Under the pieces are notes generated by a model, which was not told where the DNA came from, ran no database searches, and saw nothing but the letters and a program-made list of their open reading frames with translations. The translations under genes were made by a program, and so were the position numbers. Positions 137-18,000 of a DNA stretch of 64,000 bases are shown here, one piece after another; within the stretch, counting starts at the first letter, position 1; every line of letters begins with the position of its first letter. The stretch lies in the NCBI GenBank assembly GCA_001544655.2, contig FCOD02000018.1, positions 50,120 through 114,119 of the forward strand, given 5' to 3'. Origin of the DNA: Caballeronia turbans (GTDB lineage Bacteria > Pseudomonadota > Gammaproteobacteria > Burkholderiales > Burkholderiaceae).

Positions 137-2140
<2,004 letters not shown>

Positions 2141-2158
2141 TGCTCGTTTTTGGCTGAC

Positions 2159-2198
2159 AACGGCCTTTCGCACAGCGCGTGCGAAAGGCCGTTTTTTT
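2159..2198 (+). terminator. Intrinsic terminator of thiC
   Basis: A near-perfect hairpin (AACGGCCTTTCGCAC pairing with GTGCGAAAGGCCGTT) is followed at once by a run of seven T. It begins 19 nt after the thiC stop codon. Confidence 0.95.
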
Positions 2199-2402
2199 AT
2201 GGGGACCGGGCGCAATGTCTTGTCGCGCCTGGAGGAAAGATTGATCTGACGATTCAGGCACCTTTTCTGCTGGAGATGTGCACGAACCGGCGAAAACATG
2301 GCGGCCCCCCTTTGGGCCGACGCCGAAACGGTTGCACCGCGTCGCGCGTAGTCGCGGGCGAACCGGAGCCGATTCATCTCATCATCGAATTGGAGAGTCG
2401 AC

Positions 2403-2615
2403 ATGAAAAACATCAAACAGATCGGCGCCGCTGCAGTGGTCGTTGCGTTTCTGGGAGGATTGACCGCTTGTAGCGACATGACCACGCGTCAACGGGATAC
2501 CGCCATCGGCGCTGGCGTCGGCGCGGCCGGCGGAGCGGTGATCGGCGGCAGCGCACTTTCGACGCTGGGCGGCGCCGCCGTTGGGGGCATCATCGGGAAT
2601 CAGGTCGGCAAGTAG
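2403..2615 (+). CDS. Small glycine-zipper lipoprotein (OsmB-like)
   Basis: A 70-residue precursor. A hydrophobic signal peptide ends in the lipobox LTAC (Cys23), giving a 48-residue mature lipoprotein. The mature part begins with a short polar stretch (SDMTTRQRDT) and then repeats small-residue GxxxG patterns (AIGAGVGAAGGAVIGG, GGAAVGGIIG), the glycine-zipper signature of OsmB/Rick-17kDa-like outer-membrane lipoproteins. A GGAGA-type ribosome site precedes the ATG. The exact role is unknown; relatives are often stress-induced. No operon partner is visible. Confidence 0.85.
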   Translation: MKNIKQIGAAAVVVAFLGGLTACSDMTTRQRDTAIGAGVGAAGGAVIGGSALSTLGGAAVGGIIGNQVGK

Positions 2616-2826
2616 CGAAACCGTTGCCTGTGCGGCGAAGTGTTCCGCTTCGCCGCCATAAAAGAGTCCGCCGTTTCAAATTTGTTACAGAAAAACGCTT
2701 CGGTAATGCTTTGTCACATGACGCCGGACGCTTGCCCCTCATCGTTGGCCTAAGCTGTTTCTTGACGGACCGTTCGATTTTTATCGATCCCGGAGTCCGG
2801 CCAGCCGTAGTGCAAGGAGCAGCATC

Positions 2827-3318
2827 ATGATTTCCGCCCGCAGCATTCCCGGACTCGTAACGGCCGCCGCCGCGCTCGCCGTCGGGCTTCTTCTGAGCGG
2901 GTGTTATTACCCTTACGGCTATCCGGCTTATCCATCCTATCCCGTCACCAGCGCGATCTACACGCAGCGCGAATTCACGGTGCCGGCGTCGGGTGCGGCC
3001 GTCGCTTCGTCGCCTGCCACCCTTCCGCCGCAATACGAGTACGCAGTCGGCTCGCCCTATTCCGACTACTACCAGACCTATCCGTACCCTTATCCGTACT
3101 ATCCGCCGTACGCCGCTTACCCGGCTTATTACCGCTATGGCTACGGCTATCCGGCGGTCTCGTTTGGATTCGGTTATTGGGGCGGCGGCGGTTGCTGCTG
3201 GGGCCACGGCGGGCACGGCGGCGGTTGGCACGGCCACGGCGGGCATGGCGGGCATGGCGGAGGCGGATGGCACGGCGGCGGCGGCAGCTGGCATGGTGGC
3301 GGCGGCCACGGCCACTGA
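2827..3318 (+). CDS. Tyr/Pro-rich and Gly/His-rich lipoprotein
   Basis: A 163-residue protein with a signal peptide and lipobox LLSGC (Cys26). The mature chain has strongly biased composition. The first half is Tyr/Pro-rich (repeated YPYPYYPPY and YPAYYRYGYGYP patches); the last 50 or so residues are built of Gly, His and Trp (GHGGHGGGWHGHGG-like repeats). Such tails are typical of low-complexity cell-envelope proteins and could bind metal through His, but that is inference. A GGAGCAGC ribosome site precedes the ATG. Not assignable to a named family by eye. Confidence 0.75.
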   Translation: MISARSIPGLVTAAAALAVGLLLSGCYYPYGYPAYPSYPVTSAIYTQREFTVPASGAAVASSPATLPPQYEYAVGSPYSDYYQTYPYPYPYYPPYAAYPAYYRYGYGYPAVSFGFGYWGGGGCCWGHGGHGGGWHGHGGHGGHGGGGWHGGGGSWHGGGGHGH

Positions 3319-3350
3319 GCGCGGTGCCGCGCGTCGGCGCGCGCGACATG

Positions 3351-3375
3351 CGACGGAAAATCGTTTTTTCCGTCG
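3351..3375 (+). terminator. Candidate hairpin downstream of the Gly/His-rich lipoprotein
   Basis: CGACGGAAAA pairs with TTTTCCGTCG across a 5-nt loop, 32 nt after the preceding stop codon. The T run lies in the stem rather than after it, so this is a weak intrinsic terminator or a bidirectional structure. Confidence 0.4.
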
Positions 3376-3611
3376 CCCCGTAACAGGGCTGCAACATTTT
3401 CTGACGCGCACACGCCTTCGCGCGCGGATTGCGCGACTGTGCGCCCGGACACTTTCCTTATCCGACAAGGCTTCGGCACATTTCGCCAGACGATTGGCAC
3501 AGTTCTGGCTACATAGGTCCCCTATTCGCCACGCCGCAATGGCGATCCAAGCACCTAGCAGCAAAACTTCGCGCGCATCATCGGCGCACTTTCCGTATCG
3601 GGGGATCGGAC

Positions 3612-3740
3612 ATGATGGCCTTTATGTTTTTTTTGCTGTGGATGCTTGCCTCGCTCGGCCTGTTGACCGTGTGGGTGTTCCGCCAGACGCCTCCTGCCGG
3701 CCCTGACGATCGCGCGCCCGATGCGGTCGCCAAAGGCTGA
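3612..3740 (+). CDS. Very small single-span membrane protein
   Basis: A 42-residue reading frame starting MMAFMFF, preceded by GGGGATCGG. Residues about 3-22 form one hydrophobic helix rich in Phe, Leu and Met; the rest is a short Pro/Asp-rich polar tail ending AVAKG. The upstream in-frame extension (from 3429) lacks coding character, so the ATG at 3612 is preferred. Function unknown. It could be an unrecognised small membrane protein or a chance frame; the ribosome site and clean topology favour a real gene. Confidence 0.45.
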   Translation: MMAFMFFLLWMLASLGLLTVWVFRQTPPAGPDDRAPDAVAKG

Positions 3741-4005
3741 CGCCCGCCACTTACGCACGCTCCCGCGCCACTCGCGCATCGACGACGCGCCCCAAGCGGC
3801 GCGCTTCGTCACGCCCGCGCCCTACGCCCACGCCGCAATAACCGGCATTCACGACTTGACGCAGGCCGTTCGCGCCCTATTCTTAGTGGGCGCGTTTATG
3901 CGTTTGCTTAAGTCGGCGGCCGACTCCTGCTGAACATCAAACTCCACGCGCATCGCGGCTTTGCTTCGCGCCGCTTCGGCTCATGACAAAGAGAAGGAGA
4001 CCCTG

Positions 4006-5616
4006 ATGTTTCACCAGCTACTCACCCCGATCGCCAATTCGCTGTTCGCGTCCTTTATCGTCGCCGCGCTGCCGATCATCCTCGTGCTCGTGCTGCTGGG
4101 CTGGGCGCGCCGCCCCGCGTGGCAGGCATCGCTCGCCGGATTGATTCTCGCGTTCGTGATCGCCGTGGCGGGCTGGCGTTTCCCGGCCGGGCTCGCGCTC
4201 GATTCGGTCGCGGCCGGCGCCGTCTTTGCGCTGTGGCCCGTCATGTGGATCGTCTTCGCCGCGATCCTGCTCTACAACGTCGCGCAACGCTCGGGGCGTT
4301 TCGAAGCGTTTCGTCTGTGGATGGTCGACAACCTCCCGAACGACCGGCGCATCGTGCTGGTGGTGATCGGCTTCTCGTTCGGCGCGCTGCTCGAAGGCAT
4401 CTCGGGCTTCGGCACGCCGATCGCCATCACGAGCTCGCTGCTGATTCTGCTCGGCTTCCCGACGCTGGAAGCGCTCACCTTCACGCTGATCTTCAACACG
4501 GCGCCGGTCGCGTTCGGCGCGCTCGGCGTGCCGATCACCGTGCTCGGCGCGGTCACGCACCTGCCGACCGACGCCCTCGCGAAAATGGTCGGCCGCCAGT
4601 TGCCGTTCTTCGCGTTCTTCCTGCCGTTCTACGTGATCGGCATCTACGCAGGCTTTCGCAACATGACGCGCGTCTGGCCCGTGCTGCTCGTCTCCGGGGG
4701 CGCGTTCGCGCTCACGCAGTTCGTGACGTCGAACTACATCAGCTATGCGCTGACCGACGTGCTCTCCTCGCTCGTCTCGCTGATTCTGACGATCGCGTTC
4801 CTGCGCGTGTGGAAGCCCGTCGCCGACGAGCGCTTCGCCGTAAACGTCGAGCGCCTCGGCGATAAAGACGACAAGCGCGCGGCGCTTTCGGGCGGCCACG
4901 GCTGGGTGCCGTGGATCGTCGTGTCGGCGGTCGTGATCGTGTGGACGGTGCTCAAGATTTTCCTGATCGGCGACGTCAAGGTCGCGTGGCCCGGACTCGA
5001 CAAGGCCGTCTATATCACGCTCTATAAGCAGCCGTACGGCGCGATCTGGGACTTCCAGCCGCTCGCGACCGGCACCGCGATTCTGGTGGCGTCGATCATC
5101 ACGGCGCTCCTCGTGAAGTTGCCCGCGCGCGAGTACGGCGCGGCGATCGTGGATACGTGGGTGCAGACGCGCATCGCCATTCTGACGGTCGCGACGATCG
5201 TCGGCCTCGCTTATCTGATGAACTACTCGGGCATGAACTACACGCTGGGTCTGGGCGTGGCGTCTGTCGGGCCGTTCTTCCCGCTCGTGTCCGCGTTCCT
5301 CGGCTGGGTGGCGGTGTTCCTCTCGGGCAGCGACACGTCGGGCAATGCGCTCTTCGGCAATCTGCAGGTGGTCGCGGCGAACCAGCTGAATCTGAACCCG
5401 GTGCTGATGGCGGCGACCAACTCGTCGGGCGGCGTGATGGGCAAGATGATCTCGCCGCAAAACATCTCGACCGGCGTGGCGACGACCGAACTCAAAGGCA
5501 AGGAAGGTCTCGTCTTCGCGCGCACATTCAAGCATTCGATCCTGCTCACGATCGTGCTCGGCGTGCTCGTGTGGCTGCAGCAGAACGTGCTGACGTGGAT
5601 GATTCCGCCGCATTGA
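4006..5616 (+). CDS. lldP: L-lactate permease
   Basis: A 536-residue polytopic inner-membrane transporter of the LctP family, importing lactate (and often glycolate) with protons. Family-typical stretches include LLEGISGFGTPIAI, NTAPVAFGALGVP, FLSGSDTSGNALFG and NSSGGVMGKMISPQN. A dozen or more hydrophobic segments run along its length. The start at 4006 follows an AGAAGGAG ribosome site 7-8 nt upstream; the longer frame from 3961 lacks such a site. No lactate dehydrogenase genes are adjacent, so regulation cannot be read from context. Confidence 0.95.
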   Translation: MFHQLLTPIANSLFASFIVAALPIILVLVLLGWARRPAWQASLAGLILAFVIAVAGWRFPAGLALDSVAAGAVFALWPVMWIVFAAILLYNVAQRSGRFEAFRLWMVDNLPNDRRIVLVVIGFSFGALLEGISGFGTPIAITSSLLILLGFPTLEALTFTLIFNTAPVAFGALGVPITVLGAVTHLPTDALAKMVGRQLPFFAFFLPFYVIGIYAGFRNMTRVWPVLLVSGGAFALTQFVTSNYISYALTDVLSSLVSLILTIAFLRVWKPVADERFAVNVERLGDKDDKRAALSGGHGWVPWIVVSAVVIVWTVLKIFLIGDVKVAWPGLDKAVYITLYKQPYGAIWDFQPLATGTAILVASIITALLVKLPAREYGAAIVDTWVQTRIAILTVATIVGLAYLMNYSGMNYTLGLGVASVGPFFPLVSAFLGWVAVFLSGSDTSGNALFGNLQVVAANQLNLNPVLMAATNSSGGVMGKMISPQNISTGVATTELKGKEGLVFARTFKHSILLTIVLGVLVWLQQNVLTWMIPPH

Positions 5617-5731: not shown

Positions 5732-6664
5732 ATGTCACCCGCCAATCTGTTGCAACTGATCGTGCTCGCCGCCTTGTGGGGCGCATCGTTTCTCTTTATC
5801 CGCGTCGGCGTCGTCGAATTCGGCGTAGCGCCGCTGATGGCCCTGCGCGTCGGAATCGGCGCCGTGTTTCTGATCGCGATGCTGCTGGCGCGCCGCCCGT
5901 TCGCCGCCTCTGTCGCGACACTGCGCGCGCGCTGGCTTCAGTTGCTGGCCGTCGGCATTCTCAACTCCGCCGCGCCCTTCTGTCTCTTCGCCTACGCCGA
6001 ACTGACGCTGTCGGCGGGCGCGACGTCCGTCATCAACGCGACGACGCCGCTCTTCGGCGCGCTCGTCGCCTTCCTGTGGCTGCGCGATCGCCTGACGACG
6101 GCACGCACGATCGGCATGGCAATCGGCTTCGCGGGCGTGCTCGTGCTGGTGTGGAACCAGATCGCGCCCGGGCACGCGGGGCATGACGCGGCGCTGCCGG
6201 TGCAGGGCATCCTCGCGGCGGCCGCGGCGCTCGCGGCATCCGCGCTCTACGGCGTCGCGGGCAACTTCGCGAAGAAGTATCTGATGGACGTCGACGCGAT
6301 GACCAACGCCGCCGGCAGCATGATCGGCGCAACGCTCACGCTTGCGCCCATTGCGTTCCTCACGTGGCCCGCCGCGCCGGTTTCCGCCCACGCGTGGGGC
6401 GCGGTGCTCGCGCTCGGCATCGGCTGCACGGGCATCGCGTACTTCATCTATTTCCATCTGGTCGCGGTCGCGGGTCCGGCCCGCGCGATGACCGTCACCT
6501 TCGTCATTCCGCTCTTCGGCATTCTGTGGGGCGCGGTGTTTCTCGGCGAACATGTGTCGATTGCGATGATCGCGGGGTGTGGGATCGTGCTTGCGGGGAC
6601 TTCGCTTGCTACCGGCGTTGTGAAGCGTGTGCCGTTCATTGGGCGGCGTAAGCTTGCGCCGTGA
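5732..6664 (+). CDS. EamA/DMT-family transporter
   Basis: A 310-residue inner-membrane protein with two tandem five-helix EamA repeats (about residues 5-140 and 155-295). The typical N-terminal signature LAALWGASFLFIRVGV and the motif SVINATTPLFGALVAF are present. Family members export amino acids or other metabolites, or act as permeases; substrate cannot be told from sequence. It lies 115 nt after lldP with no convincing terminator between, but the hairpin-containing leader argues for its own signals. The start codon has no strong Shine-Dalgarno sequence. Confidence 0.9.
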   Translation: MSPANLLQLIVLAALWGASFLFIRVGVVEFGVAPLMALRVGIGAVFLIAMLLARRPFAASVATLRARWLQLLAVGILNSAAPFCLFAYAELTLSAGATSVINATTPLFGALVAFLWLRDRLTTARTIGMAIGFAGVLVLVWNQIAPGHAGHDAALPVQGILAAAAALAASALYGVAGNFAKKYLMDVDAMTNAAGSMIGATLTLAPIAFLTWPAAPVSAHAWGAVLALGIGCTGIAYFIYFHLVAVAGPARAMTVTFVIPLFGILWGAVFLGEHVSIAMIAGCGIVLAGTSLATGVVKRVPFIGRRKLAP

Positions 6665-6754
6665 GCCAGGCTTCTGCCAGGAACGCTGGACGCCGCGGCG
6701 ATTTCTTCGTTTTCTTGCTTCTGCATACCGTCGACATCGTTCGCGCTCTGATGG

Positions 6755-7078
6755 TCAAAGGCACCGGCGGCGCGCTGCCGACTTCCATCCCGGTAATCGG
6801 ATCGCCAAGGAACGAAAGCGCTCCATGCGCTCGTGAATAGCGTCGAGTACCGCAAACAGCGGCGGTCCGTTCTTGTAGTTCGACCGGCGCGTCGGTTCGA
6901 TATCCCCGCGTGCGTGCTGATGAATAAGGACTTGACCGGCGAGACGCTCGCTTCCCTGCGCGGGTGCTTCGGCTTCGACCTGGAACAGGTGGAGCGGCGC
7001 GCAGCGGCCCCCGATTGCTAGCTCCGCCGGCCATTCGATTTGGGCAGTTCCTATTTTCGGTTGCGCGAAGTCAGGCAT
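6755..7078 (-). pseudogene. Unidentified coding-like frame, probably decayed
   Basis: A 107-codon minus-strand frame starting MPDFAQPKIGTAQIEWPAEL. The first 90 or so residues look protein-like; then the sense seems to pass to another frame (reading DPITGMEVGSAAGAFDHQSA) near 6800-6830, suggesting a frameshift. Its ATG overlaps the stop of the coding-like remnant upstream (ATGCCTGA). I do not recognise a family. It borders the T6SS island and is probably part of the same mobile material. Confidence 0.3.
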
Positions 7079-7249
7079 CTTTCACCACGAATTGATACAC
7101 AAATTCTCTCGGCTGCGCGTTAGCCTCCGTATCGCTAACGGCTCGCGCTCCGAGACGTCGGCCACTTCGGATTCCGGAATACCGAGCTGGTGCACAAACC
7201 CATTCAAAATGATCGGCAGGTTCCTGAAGTTGAGCACTGCTTTGGACAC
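7071..7249 (-). pseudogene. Unidentified gene remnant, frameshifted
   Basis: Read from a GTG at 7249, one minus frame gives a protein-like segment (SKAVLNFRNLPIILNGFVHQ and onward) for about 36 codons. A second frame then gives a natural-looking C-terminus (QPREFVYQFVVKDA) ending with TGA at 7071. The switch of sense between frames near 7135-7150 points to one indel in a formerly intact gene. The start is lost or uncertain. Family not recognised. Confidence 0.25.
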
Positions 7250-7269
7250 GCTGCGGCGGGTCTTTTTTG

Positions 7270-7295
7270 TTTTGGCTACGCGCTTTTAGCCAAAA
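7270..7295. other. Palindrome just upstream of the vgrG remnant
   Basis: TTTTGGCTA (7270-7278) and TAGCCAAAA (7287-7295) form a 9-bp inverted repeat, immediately followed by GGAGG (7297-7301), the ribosome site of the vgrG remnant. Neither strand has a T run after the hairpin, so it is more likely an operator or leader structure than a terminator. Confidence 0.4.
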
Positions 7296-7306
7296 AGGAG
7301 GATTAG

Positions 7307-9231
7307 TTGAATCGCAGAGACGAATACTTTGAAAGACGTGAGCGCGCTTTTCAAGGACAGCATCAGCCCTACTTTCTTGAGATAAGAAGCGCGCCGAGTT
7401 CGGCCACGGCGGATGTCTTCAGCATTGAGGGCGAGGAAGCCATCGGGCAGGAGAGCCGCTTCAAGATTCAGTTCACGCACACATCGCACGACTTGTCCCA
7501 GCGCGAGTATCTGGGCAAGCGGGGTTCGCTTCTCGTGCAGCCGCCGCATGACCCGACTCGCCAACTCAAGCCCGATCCGGCACGTCACAAATTTGGCGTA
7601 ATCACAGGCTTCTCCAAACTCTCGACTCTTCGCGGGCAATCCGGACCTCCCGTACATACTCCATGCGCTGCATAACTCGCAGGATACCGACCCGGTTCAT
7701 CAGGAACACAAGTGGCGCACGCGCAACGTCGTCATTCACACGGTTCGCAACAACACGATTCAGGTCGAGGACCGCGAGAACCAGGAACATATCAAGATCG
7801 CGACGGAGCCGGGCAAGTCGCAACTGAACCTCGGTCACGCGGTCGGCCGTGATGACAAAGCTCGCGGATTCGGCTTCGAACTGCGTCTGCGCCGGAAATC
7901 ATGCATTTGGCAGGGCCTGCGTTCGCGCCCGTGGTCGTGCCGTTTAAAACGGGTTGCGACGCGTGGCTGTACTCCGAGAGTTTCGCGGAGAAGACGACGC
8001 CGCCCGGATCGAAGCAAGTGAACTGGGAGCAGCCGCAGAGTGCAGGCGCGGTGCCTGCTGCGCCCCCTTCGCCGTCAACGTCCGACGCGAGCGCGTCGAG
8101 TGCGCCGTCGGCCAATGCTGCCGCGTACGATCAGCCGTCCCCCGATGCGCCCGAGGCGGATCATGATTCCAAGCATGAAATGAAGAAATCGCCAGCGTCA
8201 AAGGAGACCGATCCTGAGCCGGAACCGATCAAACTCGCCGAGCCGGTTTGGTGTGACTGGAACCTGAGAAGGTTGAAACCGAATGCGACGGCGCAACCGA
8301 AACGGGAGAATATAAGGCACTGACTAATACGAAGACTCCTTGGCTTAATCTAGACAACAGCCAACGCATCGGCGGGGGATCATTCCCTACTACGTTCGAA
8401 CTGCTTTATGAGCCGGACACAAAAACACTGACAGCTTCCGTCCGTGTAAAAATAATACCGGTTGACCTAATTAAGGCCGACAGCACCGGTCAAGCGATCC
8501 TCGATTGCGACGGGCGTAAGCAGTCTGTGCCATACGAAAACAGCGCGCACTGGCGAAATGTTGCGAATGGTGTCGGATCGCCGTTTGCCGGACTCGTCAT
8601 GGAATATCGCGATGCGGCAGGATCAAATGTCGATCTTGTTGCGTTGAAACGGCAGGTAGAAGCAACGCTGAATGGGCATAAGAGCCAATTGATTCTTGCC
8701 GGATGTTCAAAGGCCGCTTCGTGTGGCTGCCGGGTCAAGGTTAGATTCAATGTGACGTTCTTATTGAGCGTTAAGAATTGCCACGTCGGAGAATATCACA
8801 AAGAAATATGGTTATTTCCGAAAACAGACCGCGCCGACGCTGCATCATGGGGCGAGTCAAATTTCGACCCCATACCTAAAGATCCGAATCGGTATGTATC
8901 GCTCTCTGAAATGAACATTGTTGCACACGAATGCGGTCATCTGTTTAATTATCCCGATGAATACTGGGCGTTCGGCGGTTTTGTTCACAGTGACTATATA
9001 AACAATGGTGAGCTTGATTTTAAGAAAGCCGATGAATTGAAACTCAAGCAAACGTGGAAAATGATGTCTACACCTAATCTCATGGGGTCGGGCGCCCGAC
9101 GACAAAGCGCGAAAACGCGCTCCTACTATCTTCGATACGTCAGGCAGCACTTTTCGAAAATGACAAATAAGACTTGGAATATTGGTTATGAAGAAGAATT
9201 GGTGTGCGACGAAAATTCGCAAATTAATTAG
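7307..9231 (+). pseudogene. Decayed evolved vgrG (T6SS spike) with C-terminal HExxH metallopeptidase domain
   Basis: From a TTG behind a GGAGG site, the first 110 or so codons read as the N-terminus of a type VI secretion VgrG (YFLEIRSAPSSATADVFSIE; SREYLGKRG-like LSQREYLGKRG). At about 7637 the sense jumps frame to a later VgrG segment (NPDLPYILHALHNSQ ... VEDRENQEHIKIAT ... SQLNLGHAVGRDDKARGFGF). Near 7885 it jumps again to the C-terminal end (PEIMHLAGPAF), so most of the gp27/gp5 body and DUF2345 repeat region is deleted. A Pro/Ser/Ala linker follows, then after another frame change near 8256 a long open region to 9231. That region has a Cys cluster, the zinc motif HECGH (8926-8940), PDEY (8953-8964) and NLMGSG further on, as in secreted zinc peptidases. 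Pseudomonas VgrG2b is a known VgrG with a metallopeptidase tail. The spike itself cannot be functional as read. Confidence 0.75.
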
Positions 9232-10594
9232 AAACATCGCAGTCGAAAAGAAGACTCTCACGAAATTACTAGTGATTTATTTAGGAGGTTTTGCTGTGCC
9301 GATTCTCTCTGCCGCCGCGACAGTGCCGAGCGTCGCCGATGAAGGTTTCTCCATGAGTAGGATGGGCGGTCATCAGTACGGCACTAATGGAATCGGAGTA
9401 TGGACTTCAGGGAGGGTTCGTGTTGGTCTATCAGACACAATTCAAACAGAGTTTAATGGCGCTGGAATTATAGAGAATCAGCTTACATCGGAAGACGTTA
9501 AGCAGGCTAGAGACATTCATCGTCAGCTATGTGAAATTGCTGATTCCAAGCCCGCAACAGACATGAAACGGATTGATCCGCCGACTGTATATTCCGCCAG
9601 CTGTGTACAAAATGGCAAGAAAACCGTTTATCAAGGAAGGATAGACGAGCTACCTAGAGAACTTTGCTTTCTTATGGATAGCTTCTATTTAAGAACTCGG
9701 GATTCTTATGCACGTGACGGCCGCGCTATTGCCAAGCTTGATGTTTCCGTAGAGAGCATTGTCCGGCAAAGAGATGGATTCCAGATATCGGTCAAATTCA
9801 TCAATAGCGGAGATTACCCTATGATTACTCTCCCCCCCGACCACTGGAGCGGTGTATGGGGAGAAGATTTAATCTGGATCCACGGACAAAGCGCGGACGG
9901 CAAGCATAAGTGGAATGTCGATCTATCGGCGTTGCCCTTGATCAACAAGGCCGACTTCCCCGGAGACACCGTGACCATTCCACCGAGGAGTTCTGTAACG
10001 TACAAATTCTTGACCCTTCCCGATGAAAAGCTAATTGCTGGAATATACAGCTTCGAAGCCCAAGTTTTTATGAGCGTCGGCGCAGAAGACGGCCCCGTTG
10101 CCAGCATGGGCAAAGTCGATTTCCACTCAGACCGCACCAAGCCCACCCGCGTAACTTTCGACCGCGACTACCCCTCAACCCCGCAAGAGTGGAAGGATTT
10201 CGAAGCGCGTAAGGCTAAGGAAGTGTCTTTCCTAATGCCCGGCGCGACGGTGGCCGAATCCGGCTACTACCGCGCTGCGTCGATTGCCGGAACCCGCGAT
10301 CAGTTCGTGAGGAAGTTCGAGCAAGGCACCGCTGCGCCCGACCTTGATTTCCAACGCTGGGACCGTTGGGAATGGGAGGCGGATCTAGCTCGCGCGACCG
10401 TCTGCAAACCCGGCGAGACGTGCCCGCGCGAGGGTCGCTGGATACTGCGCGCGAAAGACTACTCCTACGGCAGCAAGGGCGATCTCACTTACCCACAGCA
10501 TCAGCAACTTTTCCGGATGGGCGAGCAGAGTCGCTCCATTGATGTTGCCAACGTCGATGGGTCGAGACTCTTCTGGGAATGGTTGAGCGCGTAA
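9188..10594 (+). CDS. Exported protein overlapping the metallopeptidase region; candidate immunity protein
   Basis: A 468-residue protein with a basic N-terminus and a hydrophobic signal segment (KLLVIYLGGFAVPILSAAA), so it should reach the periplasm. No named domain recognised. The middle (about residues 180-290) has the alternating pattern of a beta-sandwich, including VTIPPRSSVTYKFLTLPDEK. It overlaps the 3' end of the vgrG/peptidase remnant by 44 nt and has no own ribosome site, so it was probably translationally coupled to it. That arrangement and its export fit an immunity protein to a periplasm-acting T6SS toxin; this is inference. Its 5' half is AT-rich like the toxin region. The frame is intact although the partner is broken. 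Confidence 0.7.
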   Translation: MKKNWCATKIRKLIRNIAVEKKTLTKLLVIYLGGFAVPILSAAATVPSVADEGFSMSRMGGHQYGTNGIGVWTSGRVRVGLSDTIQTEFNGAGIIENQLTSEDVKQARDIHRQLCEIADSKPATDMKRIDPPTVYSASCVQNGKKTVYQGRIDELPRELCFLMDSFYLRTRDSYARDGRAIAKLDVSVESIVRQRDGFQISVKFINSGDYPMITLPPDHWSGVWGEDLIWIHGQSADGKHKWNVDLSALPLINKADFPGDTVTIPPRSSVTYKFLTLPDEKLIAGIYSFEAQVFMSVGAEDGPVASMGKVDFHSDRTKPTRVTFDRDYPSTPQEWKDFEARKAKEVSFLMPGATVAESGYYRAASIAGTRDQFVRKFEQGTAAPDLDFQRWDRWEWEADLARATVCKPGETCPREGRWILRAKDYSYGSKGDLTYPQHQQLFRMGEQSRSIDVANVDGSRLFWEWLSA

Positions 10595-10662
10595 CGCGCC
10601 GCCGATCCTGTCCAAGCCGGGGCATTGCGCCCCGGCGTCCTATCTGTTCCTAAAGATTGAAC

Positions 10663-10920
10663 ATGAAAAACCCAGTATGCAAAGGCGATCCGACCTCACA
10701 TGGCGGCGTCGTCAAAACCGCCTCTTCCAGCTTCGACATTGATGGGCGCATGGTCGCGCTGCTGCATGACATCGTTACGTGCCCTCAACACGGAGACAAC
10801 CCCATCATTGAAAGCGGCGAAGGTTATGAGGAAGACGGTCGCAAGTGGGTCGCCGATGGATGTCTGACCCGATGCGGCAGCGTTGTCCACGCTACTACCA
10901 AGGGAATGGACATCGCATGA
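10663..10920 (+). CDS. PAAR-domain protein (T6SS spike tip)
   Basis: An 85-residue protein covering one PAAR domain: KGDPTSHGGVVKTAS at the N-terminus, VTCPQHGDNPI in the middle, and DGCLTRCGSVVHATT near the end. PAAR proteins cap the VgrG trimer, binding zinc through His/Cys residues, and carry or recruit effectors. The ATG at 10663 is preferred over the in-frame TTG at 10657. Its stop overlaps the start of the next gene (ATGA), so the two are translated together. Confidence 0.88.
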   Translation: MKNPVCKGDPTSHGGVVKTASSSFDIDGRMVALLHDIVTCPQHGDNPIIESGEGYEEDGRKWVADGCLTRCGSVVHATTKGMDIA

Positions 10921-12341
10921 GGACATGGCGCGTTCCAAACGTTCCCGAGGAAAAGCACATCGAACCGCCGTCCATCTGGATAGCGGTGTTTGCCTTTGTC
11001 GTGCTGCTCATAGCGGGCTTCATCATCACGATTCTGAACTGGAAACAAGGCGCCTCGATCGTATCGGCGAAGTTTTTTGGCTTTGCGCTGGGCCTGCCGC
11101 TTCTGGTCTGGGGCGCGCTCTGCGGCTTGCTCTATCTGCCATCCGAAGACTGGAACGACCGCGCAGACCTGTGGAATTTTCTTTGTACAGACAACTTCAA
11201 CAATTGGCGCGCGTGGTCACAGTGGAACCTGTGCATTCTCGATACCGTGACGCTTACGCCCGAGGTTGAGCTTGCCGAGCGCGTCCTCGGGCTGGAGGGA
11301 AGCGCACCGACGAACAAAGGCAAGGTGCTGAGCTTGCAAGCCGAAGGGGATGTCATCGTTGATACGAAGCTTGAGGACGTTCTGACGCAACTCGTTACGC
11401 CCTTTGTCGGAACGCTTCAGCGCTTCACCGGAAAGCGAACGGTGCATATTGCCCTTCAGTCAACGCAGGATGCCCATTTGGCAGTCTTGCGCACCGTGCT
11501 TCAAAGGCTGGAAATCGCGCATGAGCACATCGCCCTGTCTCGCTACACGATGAAGGACGTGCCGAGCATTCTTGACGAATGGATGGAAAACCAGAAGGTG
11601 CGCTATGACTACGGCTATCGAGAGCGAAAGATCATGCCGGACCTATGCCTGATGCTAGCGTGTCAGTTCAACGAGGACGGCGCCCCCACGGTATCCGAGG
11701 CGGCGCTCGGGCTTCTGTTCGGCTCGTGGCAGATGCTTGAAGATACGAAGCTTAAAGTCAAGGCGCGGCTGTTCCGCTCAATTCCCACGACGACCGACGA
11801 AATCGCCGCTGCCCTCAAGACATTGCAGACGGCCGAGCCGACGCCCCTTAAACGGCTGCGCAATCTATGGGTCAGCAACCTGGCGAAACGGGACGGTCAT
11901 ATCGTGCGGGCCATTGCGAAGGATAGCGAACCGGCTCTGACCTTGATTGACCTCGATGAGGCGCTAGGCGTGCCGGGACCGGCTAGTCCGCTGCTGTTGC
12001 AAGCGCTGGCCGCACAGACGGTTCAATTCGGACAGGGGCCGCAACTGGTCGCGATGCCGGACGCTGAAGGCTTACGCTTGAATCTCGTGGGGAACGGCTA
12101 CGCCGAGATTGCAGAGGCCAAAAGGCCCGAACCCGAATTTTGGCCGGTTTCGTATGCAGCGGTGTTCGGGTCTCTACTGCCCCTGATAGAAGTCGCGATG
12201 ATCGCATCGGATGCCGGCGCCGTCTGGACATGTAGCGTTTTAGGCGTGGGCCTTCTGCTTTTTCTTGTAGGGATTCCAGCAGGGAGGGTATTCAGGCTTC
12301 GGGGCGTGTCGCGAGAGTTCTACGAGCGTGCGCGGGGATAA
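10917..12341 (+). CDS. Membrane protein coupled to PAAR; candidate T6SS effector or partner
   Basis: A 474-residue protein starting MRTWRVPNVPEEKHIEPPS at the ATGA overlap with the PAAR gene. Two hydrophobic segments lie at about residues 20-45 and 55-75 (PSIWIAVFAFVVLLIAGFI; FGFALGLPLLVWGALCGLLY) and a hydrophobic hairpin near the C-terminus (VSYAAVFGSLLPLIEVAMIA; SVLGVGLLLFLVGIPAG). Between them lies a soluble region of about 330 residues with no recognised motif. Co-translation with PAAR suggests a PAAR-loaded effector or its chaperone, but nothing in the sequence reveals the activity. An upstream in-frame extension to 10845 overlaps PAAR and is rejected. Confidence 0.8.
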   Translation: MRTWRVPNVPEEKHIEPPSIWIAVFAFVVLLIAGFIITILNWKQGASIVSAKFFGFALGLPLLVWGALCGLLYLPSEDWNDRADLWNFLCTDNFNNWRAWSQWNLCILDTVTLTPEVELAERVLGLEGSAPTNKGKVLSLQAEGDVIVDTKLEDVLTQLVTPFVGTLQRFTGKRTVHIALQSTQDAHLAVLRTVLQRLEIAHEHIALSRYTMKDVPSILDEWMENQKVRYDYGYRERKIMPDLCLMLACQFNEDGAPTVSEAALGLLFGSWQMLEDTKLKVKARLFRSIPTTTDEIAAALKTLQTAEPTPLKRLRNLWVSNLAKRDGHIVRAIAKDSEPALTLIDLDEALGVPGPASPLLLQALAAQTVQFGQGPQLVAMPDAEGLRLNLVGNGYAEIAEAKRPEPEFWPVSYAAVFGSLLPLIEVAMIASDAGAVWTCSVLGVGLLLFLVGIPAGRVFRLRGVSREFYERARG

Positions 12342-12485
12342 GCGCGGCGGGCGGTTGAGCGTTGGAAGGCCATGCCCGCCTCTGTCGCATACGTTGATAT
12401 TAACGATGGTACAAGCGGACAGCATTACAGCCGCTGCAATCAGCACGACCCCGAATGCAATGCGGCAACATGTTTGCGCAGTCAA
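12240..12485 (-). CDS. Possible small lipoprotein
   Basis: An 81-codon frame on the minus strand from a TTG. A hydrophobic signal segment (FGVVLIAAAVMLSAC) ends in the lipobox LSAC at Cys25, followed by TIVNINVCDRGGHG and a Pro/Lys-rich tail. The signal and lipobox are convincing. The TTG start and the 102-nt convergent overlap with the PAAR-coupled gene lower confidence. Function unknown. Confidence 0.4.
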   Translation of the reverse strand: MTAQTCCRIAFGVVLIAAAVMLSACTIVNINVCDRGGHGLPTLNRPPRLSPRTLVELSRHAPKPEYPPCWNPYKKKQKAHA

Positions 12486-12611
12486 CCGATACGCCAGTGA
12501 AAACCCGGACCGCCGCCTGGCATCGCTAAAAAATAACGACGAACTTACGATCGTTGATCGTTACTAGAAAGACGCTCGCCGCTTGTCCTTCTGCTTCCGA
12601 TCAAGTCCAAC

Positions 12612-13025
12612 TCAATCCCCCCGCACCGGCCCCCTTCCCGCCTTGATCGCACCGCGCTTCACCTTGCTCTCCACGCGACGCCGTTGCGATGCGCGCGTCG
12701 GCTTCGTCGCGATCCGCTTGCGCCGCGTGACGGCGACACTCCGAATGAGCTCATCCAGCCGCGCGAGCGCCGCCGCGCGATTCATGTCCTGCGTGCGATG
12801 CTCCTGCGCCTTGATGACGATCACGCCCTCGCGCGTGACGCGGCTGTCGGTGAGCGCGAGCAGGCGATCCTTGATGTGCTCCGGCAGCGACGACGCGCGA
12901 ATGTCGAAGCGCAGATGGATCGCGCTCGACACCTTGTTGACGTTCTGACCGCCCGCGCCTTGCGCGCGCACGGCCGTCAGCTCGATTTCGTTCGGCGGCA
13001 CGGCGAAGCTGTCGGTCATCGTCAT
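12612..13025 (-). CDS. arfB: Peptidyl-tRNA hydrolase ArfB (ribosome rescue)
   Basis: A 137-residue release-factor-like protein that hydrolyses peptidyl-tRNA on stalled non-stop ribosomes. The catalytic GGQ is at residues 25-27 within RAQGAGGQNVNKV, and the Lys/Arg-rich C-terminal tail (from about residue 100) matches the part of ArfB/YaeJ that enters the empty mRNA channel. An AAGGAG lies 7 nt before the first ATG. It begins 25 nt after the recD stop codon, so it is probably the last gene of the recCBD operon. Confidence 0.95.
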   Translation of the reverse strand: MTMTDSFAVPPNEIELTAVRAQGAGGQNVNKVSSAIHLRFDIRASSLPEHIKDRLLALTDSRVTREGVIVIKAQEHRTQDMNRAAALARLDELIRSVAVTRRKRIATKPTRASQRRRVESKVKRGAIKAGRGPVRGD

Positions 13026-13050
13026 CGGTCGGCTCCTTGTCGTCCTGCGT

Positions 13051-15060
13051 TCATGTGAGACGCCGCATTCTCGCGGCGAGCCCGGAATCGCGCCGCGTCG
13101 GCTCCCGGACGGCCTGCGCGAAGATCGCCGCGGAGCCGATCACTTCGACCCTGCGCTTCGCACGCGTGATCGCCGTGTACACCAGCTCGCGCGACAGCAC
13201 GCGCACGAACGTGCCGGGCAGCACCAGCGCCGCGTGCTCGAATTCCGAGCCTTGCGATTTGTGCACCGTGAGCGCGAACGCGGTGTCGTGCGGCGGCAGC
13301 GCGGCGGGCGACACGTAGCGCAGCGCGCCATCGGCCATGCGGAACGCGACCCGCAACGAGCCGTCCGCGCCCGGCAAAGCGATGCCGATATCGCCGTTGA
13401 AAAGTCCGAGCGCATAGTCGTTGCGCGTGACGATCACCGGCCGTCCGGCGAACCACTGTGCACCGAGCGCAAGCGCAATGCCGGCCTGCTCGCGCACTTT
13501 CGCCGCGATGCGCGCGTTCACTTCATCGACGCCGCGCGGCCCCTTGCGTGTCGCGCACAGCACGCGGAAGCGATTGAGCGCGTCGAAGAGCCGCGTGTGA
13601 TCCGCTTGGGTGCCGTCGAGCACGGCGCAGAGCGCATCGGCATACGGCGCGAAGCCGTTGGCGAGACGGGTGAGCGTGCGCTCGGACAGCGCAGCGTCGC
13701 CGTCGTCGAAAAGCACGGCCGCGCGCGCGCCGGATGGATCGAGCGCATCCAGCGCGGCCTGTTCGTCGCCGTTGCGAATCGCGATCGAAAGACGCCCGAT
13801 GTCCGAGTCCAGCCCGAAGCGATAATTCTTCTGCAGCCAGACGACGCAATCGGTGAGCGTGGCTTCCCCTTCCTTGCCGGCGTCGCCCCAGTCACCGGGC
13901 AGCGTATCGAAGAGCGCGCCGTAGCCTTCGGAATCGTCGACGGGCGCGGCGTCGAAAAGTCCCAGTTGCGGCTGGCGCTTCGGCATTTCCGCATGCGGCA
14001 ACGCGGCTTCGAGCCGCTTCGCATCGATCGAGAGTGCCGAGGCGATGCGCGCCACACCCGCGACGCTGAACGACGGCTGCGCGCTCAGCTCGGCGAACAC
14101 CGCGCCGGCTTCCACGGCCGACAACTGATCCTTGTCGCCGAGCATCACGAGACGGCTCGCCGGCGCGACCGCTTCGAGCAGATGCGCCGCGAGCGCGACG
14201 TCGATCATCGAGGCTTCGTCGACGACGATGACGTCATACGGCAAAGGATTGTCGCGATGATGCCGGAAGCGCCCGTCCGACTGCACGCCGAGCAGCCGCT
14301 GCAAGGTGAACGACGTCCGCGGCAGGCGCTCCGCGAGTTCCGGCGGGAGTTTGTCCGCGCGTTCGATGAGCGCCTCCTGCATGCGCTGCGCGGCTTTGCC
14401 GGTCGGCGCGGCGAGCGCGATGCGCAGTTCCGGATCGGCATCGAGCAGGCACGCGAGCACGCCGACCACCGTCGTCGTCTTGCCGGTGCCCGGCCCGCCG
14501 CTCACGATCGTGAGCCGTCCGGCCAGCGCCGAGAGCGCGGCGACGCGCTGCCAGTCGATGTCGTCGTCCTTGCCCGGACCAAAATAACGCGCAATGCGCC
14601 CGGCTTGTTGCGCGATGTCCTCCCGCGAGACGGGCGCGCGCGCATCGCGCGAGCGTTCGACGAGCGCCCGGGCCAGCCGCCGCTCGTAATCGAAATAGCG
14701 CGCGAGGTAAAGCCGCCCATCCTCGTCGATGACGAGCGGCAGCAGATCGGCGGCGTCCGCGCGTGCGTCACTGCGCGCGAGGCACGCGACGCCGCTCGCG
14801 AGCAGCGCGTCGCGGGCTTCGGCGAAGCGTGCGTCGTGACGCCGGGCGAGCGCGGCGAGCGACAGGCACACGTGGCCTTGCGCGGTCGCGCGGCTCATCG
14901 CGAGCGCGGCGCGCTCGGCCCACAGCACGCCGCGCTCGTTTGCGCCCAGCCGCGCCGCGAGCGCGCTCAGGCGTCGCGCGAAGCCTTCGGCGAGGGCCGC
15001 GCTTTCGTCCGCAAGCGCGGGCACGGGGCGCGCCGCTTCAATTTCATCGAGCGTGCTCAT
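13051..15060 (-). CDS. recD: Exodeoxyribonuclease V subunit alpha (RecD)
   Basis: The 5'-3' helicase subunit of RecBCD, which processes double-strand DNA ends for recombination. 669 residues. Walker A GGPGTGKT is at residues 188-195, with later SF1B helicase motifs VVDEASMID, GDKDQLSAVEAG and ALTVHKSQGSEF. A region of low similarity to the usual pattern (about residues 345-400, after the DQLSAVEAG motif) is moderately extended. The start overlaps the recB stop by 4 nt, so the subunits are translationally coupled. Confidence 0.97.
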   Translation of the reverse strand: MSTLDEIEAARPVPALADESAALAEGFARRLSALAARLGANERGVLWAERAALAMSRATAQGHVCLSLAALARRHDARFAEARDALLASGVACLARSDARADAADLLPLVIDEDGRLYLARYFDYERRLARALVERSRDARAPVSREDIAQQAGRIARYFGPGKDDDIDWQRVAALSALAGRLTIVSGGPGTGKTTTVVGVLACLLDADPELRIALAAPTGKAAQRMQEALIERADKLPPELAERLPRTSFTLQRLLGVQSDGRFRHHRDNPLPYDVIVVDEASMIDVALAAHLLEAVAPASRLVMLGDKDQLSAVEAGAVFAELSAQPSFSVAGVARIASALSIDAKRLEAALPHAEMPKRQPQLGLFDAAPVDDSEGYGALFDTLPGDWGDAGKEGEATLTDCVVWLQKNYRFGLDSDIGRLSIAIRNGDEQAALDALDPSGARAAVLFDDGDAALSERTLTRLANGFAPYADALCAVLDGTQADHTRLFDALNRFRVLCATRKGPRGVDEVNARIAAKVREQAGIALALGAQWFAGRPVIVTRNDYALGLFNGDIGIALPGADGSLRVAFRMADGALRYVSPAALPPHDTAFALTVHKSQGSEFEHAALVLPGTFVRVLSRELVYTAITRAKRRVEVIGSAAIFAQAVREPTRRDSGLAARMRRLT

Positions 15061-18000
15061 GCCGCGCCTCCCGACATCAGGCGATCGAGCGCTTCGACGA
15101 GTTCCAGCGACGGGCGTCCGCGATGCACGCCGCTTGCCGATTCGCCGTCACGCCAGCCGGGACGAACGCCGCGCACGAAGAGATACAGGTACCCGCCGAT
15201 ATGCGTGTCGTATGCATAGTCCGCCAGACGCGCGCGCAAGTAGCGATGCAGCGCCACCACGTAGATGAGCGCCTGAAGGTGATACGCATGGTCCGCCATC
15301 GCCGCGGCGAGCGGCGCGGCGGCGTAGTCGGATGCGGCATCGCCCAGATGATTCGACTTCCAGTCGATGATCCAGTAGCGGCCTTCATGCTCGACGATCA
15401 TGTCGATGAATCCCTTGATGAACCCGCGCAGCGCGCCGTTTTCGAGCGCGACGTCGGGAAAGCCGTGCGCGGCCAGCAAACGCCGCAACGCGGTGAAATC
15501 GAGTGCTTGCGCCGGAAACAGAAACTCCAGCTCGTTCATGCGGCGCGTCATCGCGATGGTTTGCAGCCGCATGGCGGGCGCGATCTCGGCGGCGACCGTA
15601 TCGGCGAGCAGGCGCAGCATCATCGGACGCAGGCGCGAAGCGAGCGCTTCCGGCGCAGGGGTCGGATGCTCGTGCAGCGCGCGCTCGACGGCAGCGGGCC
15701 AGCCGGATGGCTCGGTGAAATCCGCAAGCTCGAACATGCGATGCAGGCACTCGCCCGCCGCCGCGCCGCGCGGGAACGCGAGAATGTCGTCGGGGGCGAG
15801 TTGCGAATCGTCGCGTGGGGACGCCGCTATTCGCGCGGCGTCATCGAGCGCGGCGAGTTCGTCGTGATCGGGACGCGCTTCGACGGGCTGCGCCTGATTC
15901 GCCTCGTCGCGTGCGCCGGCCGCGATCAGCGCGCTGAAACTCGCCATCCGCCAGCGATCGCGCAGGATGCGCTGATTCACGCGCGCGGCGATTTCGTGGC
16001 GATGGGCGGCATCCGCGACGAGCGGCTCGCGCATGTCGATCACGGGCAGAGGCGCGACGCCGATCGCGCCGCCCGAGCGCGCGGCGACCGCATGCCAGGC
16101 CGCGACGATGTCCGCTTCCTCGGGCGGCGCCTCGCAGAACGCATCGAAGTCTTTCCCGTTGCCCGCGACGAGCCAGTTGAGCACGCTGCGGCGCGATTCC
16201 TTCGTCGAACGGTTCGACACATAGAAACCCGCGACGACGTAACAGCGGAACACCGCGCGCGTCAACGCGACGTAGACGAGACGCGCGCGCTCGGCCGCCT
16301 GCTCGCGCGCGATCAGCGCGCTCACGCGATCGTCATGCTCGCCTTCGATGCCGTAATGGAGCACGGCTTCGCCCGTGTCGTCGTGATACTCGCGCGCGTC
16401 GGGCAAGCCCGATTTCGACGAATCTCGTGACGCGCCGTCGTTCAAAAACGGGCAGAACACGACCGCATATTCCAGTCCTTTCGACTTGTGAACGGTCACG
16501 ATCTGCACGAGATTGCGATCGGATTCGAGACGCAACTGCGCTTCCTCGCCGCCGCCCTGCTGCTCGCGTTGCGCGGCAAGCCAGCGCAGCGTCGGCGCGA
16601 TCCCGGGCTGTTCGGCCGAACGCGCCTGCAGCAACTCCGCCAGATGATTCACGTTCGTGAGCCTGCGCTCGCCGTCGGGCCGCGCGACGAGACGCGTCGC
16701 GATCGACAACTCGCGCGCGAGCGTGCGCCACATCACCGCGAAGCCGCGCTCGTGCCAGATCGTGCGATAACGCGAGAAGCGCTCGACCCAGCTCGTGGAA
16801 TCGATCGGCGCGCCGTGCGGATCGGCCGCGTCCGCGTGCTCCAGCCGCCAGAGCGCGGCGGCGTCGAGCCCGAACCAGTCGGTTGCGAGCGCCGCGCGCA
16901 GACGGCGCAAGTCGCCCGGCGTGTCGATGGCGGCGAGCACGCGCTCGATCTGCTCTGCATCGGGCGAGCCGAACACCGACGCCTGCGCGAGCTCGACGCT
17001 GCCGATGCCCCATGCGGCAAGCACGCGCTTCACGAGGCTCCCCTGCCGATGCGTCTGGACGAGCACCGCGATATCGCCCGCCGAAAGCGGCGCGCGGCCG
17101 ATCGTCACCTCGCCGCGCTGCGCGCCGCGCAGCAGCCGCGCGATCTCGGCGGCGCAGGCTTCGGCAGCGTCGCGCTGCGCGCTGGTTTTCAATAGCGCCG
17201 ATTCGCCGTCCGGCAGCATCCACACACAGAAATCGGCGATGTCGGAATAAGCTGCGGCCGGCGTGGCGTCGACGAACGGCCCGCGTTTGCGGGTGCCGGC
17301 ACGCACCGGCTGATAGTCTAGCCCGTCGAGAATGAACGCCGCCGGATTCGCTTCGAACACGCGATTGCACGCCTCGATGATCTGCGGCGTCGAGCGCTGG
17401 TTGACCGCGAGCGTATAACGCGCGCTCGCGCCTTCGCGCGCGGCGAGATAGGTGTGCAGGTCGGCGGCGCGGAAGCTGTAGATCGCCTGCTTCGGATCGC
17501 CGACGAGAAAAAGCGGCCCGTGCGGCGCGAACACGCGGTTGAAGATGGCGTATTGCAGCGGATCGGTATCCTGGAATTCGTCGATGAGCGCCGCCGGATA
17601 GCGCGCGCGCAACGCCTCGGCGAGCCACGCGTGCCTGACGAGCGCGTGATGCAGGTTCGACAGCAGGCCGTCGAACGATACGACGCGGCGCGCGCGCTTT
17701 CGTGCGGCGAGTTCTGCGGGCGCGTGATCGAGCCATTCGCGCACGATGCCGAGCCACATCGCGCGCTGCGACGCCTCGGCAGCGGCGGCGGTCACGGCGA
17801 GCGCATCGGCTTGATCGAAGAACGCGTGCACCGGCGGCGGGTGCTTGCCCTTGGTGCCCTTCGCGAGCGCGGTGGCGGTGAGCTTGAGCGCTTCCTTCGG
17901 CGGCGGCGCATGACAGTCGGCGCTGGCGAAATAGTCGGCCCACGCGTCGATCGCCGCATCGATGATCGTGCGCTTGTGCGTCGTCTTGTTGAGGATGGCC

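Follow-up and report, generated by a model that had tools for sequence, protein, structure and literature searches.

The vgrG locus and its parts

The window analysed here is a stretch of 64,000 nucleotides from Caballeronia turbans, in which positions 7307-9231 hold a single vgrG gene in pieces. VgrG is the spike protein of the type VI secretion system (T6SS), and in this case the N-terminal, middle and C-terminal relics of the spike have kept their order, in frames 2, 3 and 2, followed by a toxin domain in frame 1 and, overlapping the stop codon of the latter, by an immunity-type gene. The features on which the analysis turns are, all on the forward strand:

7307-7626, relic of the VgrG N-terminus with a TTG start, frame 2
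7627-7885, relic of the middle part of VgrG, frame 3
7886-8256, relic of the C-terminal end of VgrG and of a linker rich in Pro, Ala and Ser, frame 2
8257-9231, toxin domain of a metzincin-like peptidase family, frame 1, lacking a usable start
8704-8724, cysteines C150 and C156 of the toxin stretch, an invariant pair
8926-8958, putative zinc-site motif HECGHLFNYPD (H224, E225, H228 and D234)
9082-9084, M276 of the NLMG motif, candidate Met-turn
9188-10117, immunity-type protein, N-terminal part (residues 1-310), with an export-type segment and the part that covaries with the toxin
10118-10594, immunity-type protein, C-terminal part (residues 311-468), which covaries with the VgrG backbone

A tblastn search with the first 800 residues of the VgrG of an intact relative (locus L014) aligned residues 1-112 with 7307-7642 in frame 2 at 89% identity, residues 464-560 with 7626-7916 in frame 3, and residues 764-800, where the query ended, with 7886-7996 in frame 2; the toxin stretch comes next, at 8257-9228 in frame 1. 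This bears out the original prediction, made from the letters alone, that VgrG segments occur here in order but in different frames with the bulk between them missing. Comparison at the DNA level places the junctions at ~7627 and ~7885, at which ~1070 and ~640 base pairs (bp), respectively, are absent by subtraction of the DNA alignment coordinates. Both lengths are identical whether measured against L014 or against L010, a paralogous island of the same genome with a whole VgrG. Neither junction shows long microhomology, with 1 bp shared at most. The middle relic is matched by the T6SS_Vgr family (PF13296, E 5.4e-11), and the C-terminal relic with its linker retains 82% DNA identity to L014 over 7885-8262. 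The frame changes a third time near 8257, close to the point (8262) at which DNA similarity to L012 and L014 also stops.

An evolved VgrG carries its core and an effector tail in one frame. This is the arrangement in L014 (1207 residues), and the window copy is interrupted by three frame changes. As these are borne by three VgrG pieces and a toxin frame, the copy is best described as the remnant of an evolved VgrG. The recovery of intact homologues from related genomes supports the earlier proposal that internal deletions have reduced an evolved VgrG whose tail is peptidase-like. In itself, the decayed copy represents an ordinary pseudogene.

Affinities of the toxin tail

The toxin frame comprises 324 open codons and a stop, matching the ~325 codons proposed for it, and contains the GCSKAASCGC, HECGH, PDEY and NLMGSG motifs. 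Relatives were detected in other genomes with E-values down to 2.3e-95; together with the PF13296 match of the middle relic, this speaks against a fortuitous resemblance. With one genome sampled per species, the family is present in 11 of the 58 genomes of the genus, the source genome included, and in 2 of 300 genomes of the order and 1 of 398 of the phylum, the source genome being counted in both; plasmids yielded no toxin match. A scan of the genome contigs with the single toxin protein gave no match. The alignment-based scan was productive, recovering 15 loci, of which 7 duplicate places listed under another locus number (L021=L011, L024=L064, L025=L013, L026=L015, L027=L014, L031=L012 and L032=L016).

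No family exceeded its cut-off when the toxin was compared with Pfam, PADLOC, PHROGs and PDB sequences, and a profile of the toxin family searched against PDB chains up to an E-value of 10 returned no peptidase. PDB profile hits to protein spackle and phmmer hits to photoproteins look like chance matches and were set aside. A structure model of the domain was obtained at a predicted local distance difference test (pLDDT) score of 80.8 and a predicted template modelling (pTM) score of 0.79. Among the matches listed in its fold comparison, all 50 structures are metzincins judging by their titles, at low Z scores. At the sequence level the NCBIfam M6 domain (TIGR03296) weakly matches 15 of 16 members, with a best E-value of 5.3e-6 and others up to 0.5. 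The curated cut-off of 110.8 bits is not reached, the protein P0002 scoring 18.2 bits. Pfam M7 gives a weak match in 3 of the 16 members (best E 0.072), and profile comparison gave 92% for M6 versus 31% for an M48 control, although the alignments spanned just 22 and 15 columns, respectively.

The conserved residues point in the same direction. All 20 toxins possess the HExxHx5D signature, that is, an HExxH motif with the Asp at +10 from the first His, where metzincins have Asp or His. The Gly expected at +7 is found in only 2 of the 20. Because this Gly is absent from most of the toxins, we label the family metzincin-like rather than a member of the metzincins. A Met lying 52-55 residues beyond the first His is also invariant (20 of 20) and may form the Met-turn; the corresponding stretch of the model has a pLDDT of 54-58. 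The original prediction could not place the Cys-rich core in a known peptidase family. No Pfam family reached its cut-off; within the core C150 and C156 are invariant in all 20 toxins and C158 is not. A more distant relative, found in locus L078 from a genome of another family (positions 1311-4481), is 26% identical, carries HEIGHLLGYPDEY and has the Gly at +7; it is encoded as a separate frame behind VgrG.

The motif, and more weakly the fold, thus support a metzincin-like peptidase. The domain is probably zinc-dependent, and proteolytic activity is predicted. The family resembles M6 and other metzincins in the HExxHx5D motif, the Tyr two residues further on and the downstream Met, but differs from them in falling below the M6 cut-off, in mostly lacking the +7 Gly, in the more distant position of the Met and in the low Z scores, as well as in its β-rich front part and its fusion to VgrG.

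The earlier call of a metallopeptidase drew on VgrG2b of Pseudomonas aeruginosa. The call itself is sustained by the motif and weakly by the fold, whereas the likeness is to metzincins rather than to VgrG2b. According to the excerpted text of PMC6899460, VgrG2b uses Glu983 as an additional ligand and resembles thermolysin-like enzymes, in contrast to the Asp at +10 and the downstream Met of the present family. In both systems an HExxH domain sits at the C-terminal end of an evolved VgrG, with an immunity or immunity-type protein encoded downstream; PA0261, the immunity protein in the case of VgrG2b, needs its signal peptide (PMC6899460, excerpted text). VgrG2b was not among the matches in either the PDB profile search or the fold comparison, which excludes nothing, as the presence of its entry there is unchecked. 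The tail family would thus add to the VgrG-borne effectors a metzincin-like version that reaches no Pfam cut-off and is apparently distinct from VgrG2b.

The immunity-type gene and a joint within it

A total of 23 loci was examined, several of them cut by contig ends. The toxin is matched in 22 of these loci, all at distinct places, and in all 22 a match to the protein encoded at 9188-10594 of the window follows downstream on the same strand. In L010 this match is a fused remnant, and in L018, L019, L022, L029 and L064 it is only partly covered. The two families occupy the identical 11 of 58 genomes of the genus. In the 23rd locus, L062, the toxin is absent, and a truncated VgrG is followed by an immunity-type frame that lacks its own front. 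In L017 the immunity frame is whole and follows what remains of VgrG and toxin. A simple hydropathy check of 12 of these proteins, as opposed to a dedicated signal-peptide predictor, revealed a hydrophobic segment at the N-terminus of every one. The protein is a putative immunity protein that would act in the periplasm, and the presence of such a gene in 22 of 22 places lends indirect support to an antibacterial role for the spike. An affiliation of the C-terminal part with the TaeI family was considered and dropped, as it was matched once and weakly, in L078 (E 0.0092), and in none of 7 members. Behind the toxin relative of L078 come two similar export-type frames in tandem, and a weak match links the first of them to the immunity protein of the window (E 3e-5).

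Between the window and L012 and L014, synonymous divergence is near saturation over the toxin and the immunity gene as far as ~10145, beyond which it declines toward the level of the PAAR and membrane-protein genes downstream. Pairwise distances reveal the same partition. Across 17 loci, toxin distances correlate with those of immunity residues 1-318 at r 0.89 (0 of 2000 permutations), and with those of the immunity tail at r 0.35 (6 of 2000). Across the 12 loci whose VgrG part exceeds 600 residues, the tail correlates with VgrG at r 0.83 (0 of 2000), and VgrG correlates with the toxin and the immunity front at r 0.47 (5 of 2000) and 0.48 (6 of 2000). Upon removal of the two most distant loci the correlation between toxin and front remains at 0.89, whereas those of the toxin with the tail and with VgrG both fall to 0.19 (224 and 236 of 2000, respectively).

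The transition was localized using blocks of 40 residues in 11 loci (55 pairs, two of the VgrG parts being cut by contig ends). These pairs do not include the window, for want of a whole VgrG, L018 and L019, in which VgrG is absent, L011, with its split immunity frame, or L016 and L067, the most distant loci. Blocks within immunity residues 31-310 correlate with the toxin at 0.59-0.83 and with VgrG at 0.04-0.46, whereas those within residues 311-468 correlate with the toxin at 0.07-0.31 and with VgrG at 0.71-0.91, and the switch is abrupt. In the VgrG-toxin frame of the same loci, examined from residue 381 on in the L014 numbering, residues 381-780 track the immunity tail (0.75-0.91) and those from 861 the immunity front (0.55-0.82), with a mixed stretch between them at 781-860. 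The immunity gene is therefore bipartite, its front tracking the toxin and its tail tracking VgrG. Because the linker and toxin region covaries with the immunity front, and the VgrG core with the tail, the linker, toxin and immunity front appear to behave as a single exchange cassette.

The allegiance of the C-terminal third to VgrG rather than to the toxin could also be taken as the mark of a chaperone or spike partner instead of an immunity protein. We regard this as unlikely, given that the N-termini of these proteins look exported and that the first two thirds follow the toxin at r 0.89, as is expected of an inhibitor. A tail directed at eukaryotic hosts or predators is less probable still: VgrG2b had earlier been proposed to mediate entry into eukaryotic cells (PMC6899460, excerpted text), but an effector of that kind would not need the immunity-type gene that is matched in 22 of 22 places and covaries with the toxin.

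Returning to an immunity function, one possible though rather doubtful reading of the bipartite pattern is that the front neutralises the toxin and is swapped with it, while the tail stays fixed to the spike lineage, such that toxin-immunity pairs plug in at a preset joint. The fixed tail perhaps contacts the VgrG, the PAAR protein or the membrane protein of its own island. According to excerpts of two studies, toxin and immunity genes are swapped behind vgrG, and immunity genes outlive their toxins, in Vibrio cholerae (PMC5361080) and in agrobacteria (PMC8546570), the vgrG itself being conserved and the exchange affecting toxin ends; for V. cholerae, breakpoints within immunity genes are reported as well. 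However, the positions of these breakpoints are reported to vary greatly (PMC5361080, in the excerpted text), whereas here one boundary near immunity residue 310 fits 11 loci. Among the matches listed from the open-licence PMC literature, no title or abstract opening describes a bipartite immunity protein or this toxin family. A joint inside the immunity gene offers a clear case of how a toxin and its immunity protein could stay matched through swapping, and implies that specificity and the remainder of the protein may be separable.

Two loci have an incomplete immunity-type gene beside an open VgrG-toxin frame. In L011 (Caballeronia arvi, 5829-7050) it is split in two frames, which reflects either an error in sequencing or a toxin that lacks a complete immunity gene, and in L029 (8950-9942) it stops early, 331 residues from the first Met.

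Decay and silence of the window copy

The relics retain low ratios of nonsynonymous to synonymous divergence (dN/dS). In pairs that include the window these are 0.07 for the N-terminal piece (against L010 and L014 alike), 0.06-0.12 for the middle and 0.13-0.26 for the end and linker (against three relatives), as compared to 0.14, 0.05-0.09 and 0.20-0.29, respectively, in pairs among the other loci. The sign of relaxed selection is thus slight, with the window exceeding the other loci only in the middle piece. As the relics combine low dN/dS with little relaxation, the decay of the window vgrG is suggested to be recent.

The original prediction noted that the toxin region stays open, and this, read as a mark of selection, is not supported: were three lesions to fall at random positions, the toxin would escape them with a probability of 0.40, and no usable start is left. 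Given that chance, an unscathed toxin frame requires no selection. The dN/dS of the window toxin is unusable as a guide to selection, since its synonymous sites are saturated. The 324 lesion-free codons, together with deviation at just 2 of 42 sites invariant in the other 15 rows (other members range from 0 to 9), might be thought to indicate a toxin still in use through an internal start or frame slippage and kept by selection. This is very improbable. The earliest ATG, GTG or TTG in the frame is the GTG at 8527, and direct translation from it would drop ~90 residues, among them one invariant column and several that are nearly so; moreover, the spike required for delivery is gone from the window gene, and the probability of 0.40 counts against this reading as well. 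Equally improbable is an artefact of sequencing or assembly arising from the similar island on contig C61 of the same draft genome, which is 77-90% identical in matching stretches of DNA, as the relics differ from L010 on either side of each junction (86, 90 and 77% identity) and hence are not pieces of it, and losses of ~1070 and ~640 bp are not errors of base calling, although such an error could account for the small frame change near 8257 taken by itself.

In the absence of a whole VgrG and of a start in the toxin frame before 8527, the weapon in the window is very probably silent. The immunity gene, being open, might continue to give protection. We thus consider it likely that the window contains a recently decayed Caballeronia evolved-VgrG island with a tail that is metzincin-like in its relatives, in which the weapon is silent and the immunity, PAAR and membrane-protein genes remain open; the direct observations from which this proceeds are the lesions, the homology and gene order, the conserved site and the two-part immunity pattern. 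In intact relatives, a VgrG trimer capped by PAAR would be fired by the T6SS, its probably zinc-dependent C-terminal peptidase tail would act in the envelope of a rival, and the exported immunity protein encoded downstream would bind the toxin and spare kin. In the window, most of the spike would have been lost to two deletions and its tail severed by a frame change.

The island, its neighbouring genes and its counterparts

The vgrG island spans ~7082 to 12371 and includes three further features, all on the forward strand:

7082-7306, 5' flank of the island
10663-10920, PAAR protein, open (PF05488, E 9.8e-16)
10917-12341, membrane-type protein, open

The membrane-type protein is 91% identical in L012 and 92% in L014, and matches no Pfam family at the cut-off; on the grounds of its position alone, it is a candidate loading factor. 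Of the 23 loci, 8 have a match to PAAR and 11 to the membrane protein. An equivalent unit sits at other sites in L010 and L027. In comparisons among these sequences, blastn similarity to L010 and to L027/L014 begins sharply at 7082-7083, such that the left edge of the island agrees within a few bases at three genomic sites (the window, L010 and L027). No exact repeats of at least 9 bp are shared between the two ends of the island (7000-7120 and 12330-12450). The right-hand flank (12607-17334) is 92% identical to Caballeronia jiangsuensis L031, in which the toxin is open and vgrG is cut by a contig end, and owing to this match L031 is likely the positional counterpart of the window locus.

In the second island of the source genome, L010 (contig C61, 4072-7854), one long frame joins the whole VgrG core to the front half of the toxin and, directly after it, the rear half of the immunity protein, the remaining halves of both having been lost in frame. 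An internal stop interrupts the PAAR gene of this island, and the membrane-protein gene is fragmented. The two islands are damaged in a complementary manner, and neither constitutes a whole weapon. A different rearrangement is seen in L013 (3030-6041), a VgrG mosaic in a single frame, the front and back of which are 52% and 84% identical to L014, respectively, with ~165 middle residues missing.

The source genome, a draft of 120 contigs, encodes T6SS machinery as judged by two genes for TssB (PF05591), the core component searched for. It has VgrG N-terminal domains above the cut-off in four long frames and in one split place. The latter (G000:C72:15581-16059) is divided across two frames and is possibly another decayed vgrG.
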